Shown here: positions 54,724 to 56,042 of the stretch, piece after piece
Layout: every line of letters begins with the position of its first letter
Position numbering within the stretch: the first letter of the stretch is position 1
Source of the DNA: Symbiobacteriaceae bacterium
GTDB taxonomy: Bacteria; Bacillota; Sulfobacillia; Symbiobacteriales; Symbiobacteriaceae
Assembly (NCBI GenBank): GCA_029239785.1
Contig: JARBUG010000003.1
Coordinates: forward strand, 1-64,000
Direction of reading: 5' to 3'
DNA length: 64,000 nucleotides
Notes under the pieces: model-generated
Told to the model about the DNA's origin: nothing
What the model saw: only the letters and a program-made list of their open reading frames with translations
Database searches by the model: none
Program-made: the position numbers and the translations under genes

Positions 54724-54954
54724 TCAGTCCATGCGGCTGATGCCGGGCTTGGGACCCTGCGCCTTCGGTATGAAGGTCTGGCACAGGGTTTGGTTCGAGG
54801 TAGCCGCCTCGCCTCCGATGGAGCCGATCTCCATGCGGGTGTTTCCCAGGGTGTCCGGGTTGTTCTTCACCATAATCTTCTCGGCCTTGCACTTGTCGCC
54901 GCTGCCGTAGTAGTAGCAGCTGTTGACGGTGCAGTAAATCTGCTGGTCGGCCAA
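54724..54954 (-). CDS. DUF1540 domain protein
   Basis: 76 residues. The cysteine pattern YCTVNSCYYYGSGDKCKAE, followed by a further Cys (QTLCQTF), matches DUF1540, small proteins thought to bind metal. It is upstream of the SASP gene on the same strand. TTG 54954 is chosen because GGGAGGTG lies 5 bases upstream; GTG 54963 is possible. Confidence 0.75.
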   Translation of the reverse strand: MADQQIYCTVNSCYYYGSGDKCKAEKIMVKNNPDTLGNTRMEIGSIGGEAATSNQTLCQTFIPKAQGPKPGISRMD

Positions 54955-55132
54955 ACTGATCACCTCCCGGCATTAGTCTCCTCGGACGGAGGCGCATTCA
55001 TCCTCGATTATGGTCCGTGAAAAGCGGTGGACAAACGTGTTACGCGAGCCTTAGTGCGGCAAGGATTTCAGCCATTTTCAGGAAGGTATGCAAAGCTGGA
55101 TAAAAACGCGACAAAATGTTGCCCAAGACCCT
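54955..55132. other. Gap between DUF1540 and speH promoters
   Basis: No gene or motif is convincing here. It holds the divergent start of the DUF1540 gene and the approach to the speH promoters. Confidence 0.3.
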
Positions 55133-55161
55133 TGAAGAAAGGGCGGCAATTCGCTATGATG
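55133..55161 (+). promoter_or_regulatory. Upstream promoter P1 of speH
   Basis: TTGAAG (55133-55138) and TATGAT (55156-55161) with a 17-bp spacer. A transcript from near 55168 would begin with the hairpin GTTGCC / GGCAAC. Confidence 0.6.
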
Positions 55162-55233
55162 TGCTAGGTTGCCCAACCAAGGATGGCAACGGAACCGCTT
55201 TGCAGGAAATCAACGCCTACCATCTTTCAGGCA

Positions 55234-55262
55234 TTGACATTACCCTTCGTACATCGTAAAAT
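55234..55262 (+). promoter_or_regulatory. Main promoter P2 of speH
   Basis: TTGACA (55234-55239, perfect) and TAAAAT (55257-55262, 5/6) with an exact 17-bp spacer, a very good sigma-A promoter. The transcript would start near 55269. Confidence 0.75.
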
Positions 55263-55268
55263 CCAGCA

Positions 55269-55471
55269 TATGTCGCGAGCAACGCGTGTCCGGTCTGCCT
55301 AACTACGGAGGTTTGAGACGGCTCAACACGGGATTCCAACTTAACAGGAACCTAGTACGCCTTAAAGGGTTGGGGCTTCCGACGAGGTGCCCGACTTTTC
55401 CCCCGTTGGCGTGACGATGGTCCCGTCTAGCTTGAGAGGGCTAGAAATTCACGCTGTAGGGGGAGTTACAC
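55269..55471 (+). ncRNA. Structured 5' leader of speH
   Basis: A leader of about 203 nt precedes the speH start codon. It holds several stems: TTGAG/CTCAA, TTCC/GGAA, GGGC/GCCC, GACG/CGTC and a perfect TCTAGC/GCTAGA just upstream of the Shine-Dalgarno. The Shine-Dalgarno GGGGGAG (55459-55465) can pair with TTCCCCC (55398-55404), which in turn can pair with GTTGGGG nearby (55369-55375), a switch-like arrangement. No known riboswitch family fits by eye. Confidence 0.5.
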
Positions 55472-55867
55472 ATGGCATTTTCTACGTATGGTCGTCATGT
55501 CACCATGGATCTGCGGGACGTTGATTTTGACAAGCTCAACGATGTCGCTTTCTTGAAGAGCGTCATGGTGGAGGCGGTTAACCGCTGCGGAGCCACGATC
55601 GTCGGGGAAAACTTCATTAAGTTCCATCCGCAAGGTGTGACGGGGGTTTTGGTCCTGTCTGAATCCCACCTGTCCATTCACACCTATCCGGAAGAAGGCT
55701 TTGCAGCCATTGACTGCTACACCTGCGGCACGACCGTTGACCCTGAGCTGGCCACCGACCACATGGCAGAAGCCCTGGGCGGCCGGGTTGCCGGGTACAA
55801 GGCGCTGCAGCGTGGCACCGGCGAAATCGTAGATCTGCCCAAGTACCGTCTGGCGGCCGTTCGGTAA
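55472..55867 (+). CDS. speH: S-adenosylmethionine decarboxylase proenzyme (SpeH/SpeD, prokaryotic class 1B)
   Basis: 131 residues. The self-cleavage site is ESHLSIHTYPEEG, between Glu64 and Ser65; Ser65 becomes the pyruvoyl cofactor, with His70 and Cys85 as the other catalytic residues. The enzyme decarboxylates S-adenosylmethionine to supply aminopropyl groups for spermidine synthesis. AGGGGGAG precedes ATG 55472. No spermidine synthase gene is adjacent. A terminator follows. Confidence 0.92.
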   Translation: MAFSTYGRHVTMDLRDVDFDKLNDVAFLKSVMVEAVNRCGATIVGENFIKFHPQGVTGVLVLSESHLSIHTYPEEGFAAIDCYTCGTTVDPELATDHMAEALGGRVAGYKALQRGTGEIVDLPKYRLAAVR

Positions 55868-55894: not shown

Positions 55895-55924
55895 GAGGCT
55901 TCCGCTTTGCGGGGGCCTCTTTTG
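55895..55924 (+). terminator. Terminator of speH
   Basis: GAGGC-TT-CCGC / GCGG-G-GGCCTC with loop TTT, followed by TTTTG. Confidence 0.85.
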
Positions 55925-56042
55925 TTTTCCTGTCAGCAGGAAAAAGGTGGATGAGTGGAGAAATTTTACGTGAGACACTTTAATGTGACAGCCTTATCGC
56001 TATGTGGGGGACTGGTACACGAAAATCAGGAGGGAGTGCCCG

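Follow-up and report, generated by a model that had tools for sequence, protein, structure and literature searches.

A putative cis-acting RNA conserved before S-adenosylmethionine decarboxylase genes of Bacillota, a candidate translational switch

Described RNAs of polyamine genes and the speH locus

The polyamines are universal, and S-adenosylmethionine decarboxylase (AdoMetDC) is the enzyme committing SAM to spermidine. Among the riboswitches, SAM-II, SAM-V and preQ1-I/II are H-type pseudoknots masking the Shine-Dalgarno sequence (SD). Only one spermidine riboswitch is accepted in bacteria, a rare variant of SAM-I with a four-stem fold and 13 representatives that acts by transcription termination (Salvail et al. 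2023, PMC10853860). It sets a precedent for the spermidine feedback on the spermidine pathway, and its authors expect further polyamine classes (PMC10853860).

A B. subtilis Hfq co-precipitation study lists in its Table 2 an 'unknown or speD leader region' of 79 nt between speD and gapB (PMC3574147). This leader is counted there among the uncharacterised leaders, and the study remarks that peaks of this kind fall on aptamer domains (PMC3574147). Neither speD nor spermidine is mentioned in two recent large-scale surveys of noncoding RNAs from bacteria. In the open-licence literature, we found no description of a riboswitch in the speD/speH leader, for dcSAM or in Symbiobacterium; an earlier account elsewhere is possible.

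Here, we analysed a stretch of 64,000 nt (the window) from a Symbiobacteriaceae bacterium, contig JARBUG010000003.1. Its speH gene is framed by the following features.

55132–55160, + strand: upstream promoter P1, TTGAAG-17-TATGAT, 9/12 in the consensus scan, with a similar site at the corresponding position of three related loci (L005, L008 and L010)
55234–55262, + strand: main promoter P2, TTGACA-17-TAAAAT, 11/12 in the consensus scan
55312–55326, + strand: lineage-specific hairpin UUUGAGacggCUCAA, outside the conserved core, found in same-family relatives only and absent elsewhere
55472–55867, + strand: speH/speD, AdoMetDC of 131 aa (PF02675, 2.6e-35; TIGR03330, the 'Bsu form', 4e-41)
55895–55928, + strand: intrinsic terminator 3′ of speH, from the terminator scan

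The two promoters of the original prediction are both where it placed them, and both have counterparts in the three related loci, where TTGAC-17-TACAAT is the positional counterpart of the main promoter. The scan gave four promoter-like sites against 0.4 ± 0.6 in shuffles. The main promoter has a predicted start near 55269, leaving a leader of about 203 nt. The terminator follows speH, so the gene ends its own transcript; it is the sole terminator-like site, and the scan found none inside the leader.

Two observations concern the flanks. Upstream of speH and transcribed in the opposite direction is a gene for a DUF1540 protein (54724–54963, − strand; PF07561, 6.6e-12). The lineage-specific hairpin lies between promoter and core and reads GUUGAGAUCGUCUCAAC in relatives.

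No Rfam 15 family matches the window above its gathering threshold, and none comes near threshold in 19 relatives or in focused scans, in agreement with the earlier view that no known riboswitch consensus fits. SAM-I in particular went unmatched in the leader of the window at E-values up to 10, and in the 19 relatives at E-values up to 1. None of the testable defining features of the SAM-I variant spermidine riboswitch is in the speH leader.

Architecture and covariation of the leader RNA

Folded as a single sequence, the window leader is within the shuffle range (z −1.18), and its minimum free energy, no better than that of shuffles, was dropped as structural evidence. With this unremarkable folding and no Rfam match, the structure question was settled by comparison. 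Among the nearest orthologues, whose proteins are 73–82% identical, about 95 nt of the leader hardly varies, in contrast to the diverged flanks. The RNA is roughly 100 nt long and contains a 56-nt core (55356–55413), with these elements.

55347–55352, + strand: P1a 5′ strand GGA(a)CC, with an A-U to G-C double change in 5/22 sequences
55356–55361, + strand: P1b 5′ strand UACGCC, proposed pseudoknot stem 1, with 24 forms over 63 loci and 98.7% of cells paired
55362–55370, + strand: conserved UUA and invariant AAGGGU, a possible CCCCC competitor, AAGGGU being unchanged in 63/63 core copies
55367–55397, + strand: hairpin P2, GGGUUGGG...CCCGACUU, 92.8% of cells paired and double changes in two pairs
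55400–55404, + strand: CCCCC, proposed anti-SD strand (stem 2, 5′), exactly five C in 63/63
55405–55407, + strand: joint between CCCCC and the P1b 3′ strand, GUU here, 3 nt in every copy, the consensus being GUG
55408–55413, + strand: P1b 3′ strand GGCGUG, covarying with 55356–55361
55419–55423, + strand: P1a 3′ strand GGUCC, the partner of 55347–55352 in the same pair counts
55426–55445, + strand: hairpin P3, UCUAGC...GCUAGA, 98.1% of cells paired and double changes in four pairs, absent in the compact form
55459–55465, + strand: SD GGGGGAG (proposed stem 2, 3′), with GGGGG ahead of the start in 63/63 speD leaders and 14/425 other ORFs

P1a, P1b, P2 and P3 were all recovered by RNAalifold from an unguided MAFFT alignment. 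In the four-helix alignment 95.8% of cells are paired, and the double-change cells number 51 against 15 ± 3 when shuffled and at most 8 with the helices slid. In the core (63 copies, 50 of them distinct, 13 pairs) they number 116 against 34 ± 5 and at most 18, respectively, these being counts over copies related by phylogeny and not independent events. The core alignment was fitted to model R3, and a plain MAFFT alignment (A7) gave the same result. The relatives thus do have conserved stems, whose absence would have refuted the original claim of a new regulatory RNA.

P1b, the outer stem of the core, occurs with 24 different sequences, nearly all fully complementary, such as UUUCGC/GCGAAA, AUUCAC/GUGAAU, UACACC/GGUGUA, UACGCC/GGCGUG and GACUGC/GUAGUC. 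P1a may be complementary across all lineages, but here the cross-pair control carries the same motif. The tip of P2 varies freely in length and sequence, and the joint before the P1b 3′ strand is GUG in 52/59.

Two earlier pairings were given up. The first register of P1a set A4 against C; once RNAalifold gave the A-U to G-C changes, GGA(a)CC/GGUCC took its place. The minimum free energy hairpin of the window, in which GGCGUGA/UCACGCU extends the CCCCC:SD pairing, was rejected as the general fold because its extra pairs are not conserved among relatives.

Two local variants were also seen. Loci L052–L059 (family f38 and G116–G119) have a P2 subtype, GGGUGAGGGC...GCCCUAGCUC instead of the common GGGUUGGGGC...GCCCGACUU, and another pyrimidine linker. 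A short conserved word, TATACTnnnn(T)TCGTG(A/C), stands upstream of the core near the expected transcription start in Bacilli and family f165 (L063–L066, L071–L076 and L104–L106). It may belong to the 5′ end of the RNA or act as an operator.

Distribution and linkage to AdoMetDC

The covariance model R1 finds the RNA in 25/154 genomes of the window's own class, one copy per genome, and each copy with a listed AdoMetDC position is just upstream of AdoMetDC. A second class has the RNA in 4/46 genomes; a weak match there (E 0.04) is immediately 5′ of an AdoMetDC start, and four members of its family f165 have the compact form without P1a and P3. The core model R3 (56 positions) finds further copies 5′ of Bacillus-type speD genes. 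It matches 181/400 genomes of a third class (that of G289), one copy per genome, at E ≤ 0.01; from its SpeD sequences we take this class to be Bacilli.

The models were built iteratively and extended from earlier matches, and their E-values are rough; the stringent test is the position adjoining speD in genomes outside training. An AdoMetDC reading frame is directly downstream in 63/63 fetched copies. When 121 Bacilli genomes were searched independently for the protein, 53/53 RNA matches with listed coordinates lay 40–88 nt upstream of AdoMetDC on the same strand. In this subsample the RNA is found in 59/91 genomes with speD versus 0/30 without, and about a third of the sampled speD genomes are without a match.

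Chance or alignment artefact would fit the unremarkable folding energy and the iteration of the models from earlier matches. Neither the shuffle nor the slid-helix control reproduces the pairing, and the matches adjoin speD in all 53 loci outside training, so we regard an artefact as negligibly probable. These comparisons strongly support a conserved cis-acting RNA in the leader.

The absences are as follows. AdoMetDC genes outside the RNA-bearing clades are without the RNA, and those lacking a match to the first model (L002, L006 and L023–L035) have no upstream core even with filters off. The viral contigs searched hold no copy. Weak R3 matches at L078–L085 were set aside as noise, since none precedes speD.

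Additional AdoMetDC genes were also noted. The genome of the window has a second, divergent homologue of 39% identity without the RNA (L002, G000:C255:35161–35430). G005, a genome from another family of the order, has a second speD that carries the RNA and resembles those of the window's family (C97, L042; C32), by either horizontal transfer of the RNA–gene unit or contamination.

The RNA was seen only before AdoMetDC and never before speE, speB or metK, which makes autogenous control a serious rival to a metabolite switch. AdoMetDC or another RNA-binding protein would then repress translation at the leader, and the RNA would sense no metabolite. One copy per genome, always with AdoMetDC as the target, suits such control, as protein-binding leaders are often tied to one gene. 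Yet the long invariant internal-loop residues AAGGGU, CCCCC and GUG resemble an aptamer, and in two families of Bacilli whose genomes each have two AdoMetDC genes, the RNA is at only one of the two genes. Besides, we know of no report of AdoMetDC as an RNA-binding protein. A speD leader fragment does co-precipitate with B. subtilis Hfq, but that study favours a non-specific association with stable aptamers (PMC3574147). On balance, protein control seems unlikely.

A constitutive fold, serving mRNA stability, a fixed translation rate or thermosensing without specific ligand, is another alternative. Some of the hosts are presumably thermophiles, which would suit a thermosensor. The same core, however, is shared by GC-rich genomes and by AT-rich Bacilli that are probably mesophiles, its single-stranded residues are conserved, and conservation across three classes exceeds the need of a stability hairpin. 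We hold such a fold to be improbable, more so than protein control.

Proposed Shine-Dalgarno pairing and switch

The original prediction paired the SD GGGGGAG (55459–55465) with UUCCCCC (55398–55404), which is possible as it proposed, and let GUUGGGG compete for the latter. By covariation, GUUGGG pairs with CCCGAC in P2. Hence, AAGGG, which immediately precedes CCCCC and does not vary, is a better local competitor for it than GUUGGGG.

GGGGG stands upstream of the speD start in all 63 leaders, whereas only 3% of the other ORFs of the same loci have it. The duplex of the C-run with the SD averages −13.3 kcal/mol versus −5.2 kcal/mol with the upstream regions of other genes. The SD is 38–54 nt from the core in most copies, 20–23 nt in the compact form and 25 nt in one Bacilli copy (L071). 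Both CCCCC and the SD are invariant, so covariation cannot prove their pairing, which the conservation supports.

In nested folding, the CCCCC:SD pairing and P1b are mutually exclusive. As both are conserved, they should form either an H-type pseudoknot or two switch states. The dimensions are fixed, with a 6-bp P1b stem, a 3-nt joint and a 5-bp C:G stem, and this constancy favours, from sequence, the H-type pseudoknot masking the SD. The leader has no terminator and has the SD as a conserved partner, so translational control is most likely.

In the mechanism we propose, the 6-bp P1b would close a loop with AAGGGU, the P2 hairpin and CCCCC. CCCCC would pair with the SD GGGGG in the OFF state, making an H-type pseudoknot of P1b (stem 1) and CCCCC:SD (stem 2) and keeping ribosomes off. 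The ON state would have CCCCC released, perhaps to pair with AAGGG beside it, and the SD exposed. A product of the pathway would stabilise the core and the OFF state, so that AdoMetDC synthesis stops. The pseudoknot OFF state, the translational control with its direction and the ligand identity are all inferred.

The opposite direction is conceivable, as nested folding also lets P1b form together with AAGGG:CCC while the SD stays free, and the folded aptamer would then be the ON state. Here a substrate, SAM or putrescine, would stabilise P1b and AAGGG:CCC, free the SD and induce speD. The RNAalifold consensus pairs GGG with CCC, and nested ensembles with P1b tend to pair CCCCC with AAGGG and to leave the SD more accessible. 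The exact C5, the constant joint of 3 nt and the loose SD distances nevertheless suit a ligand-stabilised pseudoknot, and known pseudoknot riboswitches that mask the SD mostly act as OFF switches. The ON switch thus appears doubtful, to about the same degree as protein control.

We therefore prefer the OFF switch and put somewhat better than even trust in its full form, that is, a conserved cis-acting RNA turning off AdoMetDC translation via the CCCCC:SD pseudoknot with a metabolite of the spermidine pathway as the signal. As riboswitches do, the RNA has a covarying 5′-leader structure and a steady association with the gene of one pathway (63/63 and 53/53). Sensing of SAM, dcSAM or polyamines, as first predicted, is suggested by the gene context. 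We rank spermidine first, both as the end product and as a ligand for which Bacillota already have a riboswitch (PMC10853860); dcSAM or SAM would come next, and MTA and putrescine are further candidates.

The prediction of a new regulatory RNA is borne out by the conserved covarying structure, the exclusive AdoMetDC linkage, the conserved SD complementarity and the lack of an Rfam match. The RNA is most likely a translational switch and probably a new riboswitch class for spermidine or dcSAM feedback. Whether it is, in all these respects together, a common Bacillota class that senses spermidine or dcSAM, masks the SD by a pseudoknot and regulates spermidine production through AdoMetDC, hitherto unnoticed despite its presence in Bacillus-type relatives, we judge to be evenly balanced. 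To our knowledge, no dcSAM sensor was previously known, and it would be the first if dcSAM is the ligand.

The RNA, structurally unrelated to the accepted spermidine riboswitch, is present in about two thirds of the sampled speD-bearing Bacilli genomes and in two further classes. Its carriers probably include Bacillus subtilis or close kin, which would make the setting of the spermidine level in Bacillus-type bacteria testable in a standard laboratory organism.

The odc1 and potE motifs are likewise candidate RNAs near polyamine genes, but by description they differ in their genes, odc1 has a uORF and potE is about 200 nt from its gene (PMC8632094). The B. subtilis speD leader RNA shares the speD–gapB boundary and is stable, a likeness by position, and its entry is a listing without motif, structure or distribution (PMC3574147). 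The spermidine riboswitch also precedes polyamine-synthesis genes including speD, and a feedback role is plausible for both, whereas the speH RNA has no SAM-family Rfam match, other conserved residues, no terminator and a putatively masked SD (PMC10853860). Compared with SAM-II, SAM-V and preQ1-I/II, the speH RNA matches no Rfam family and adds the internal hairpin P2 and often the accessory P1a and P3, but its proposed topology is alike, with a stem, a C-rich strand pairing with the SD and translational control.
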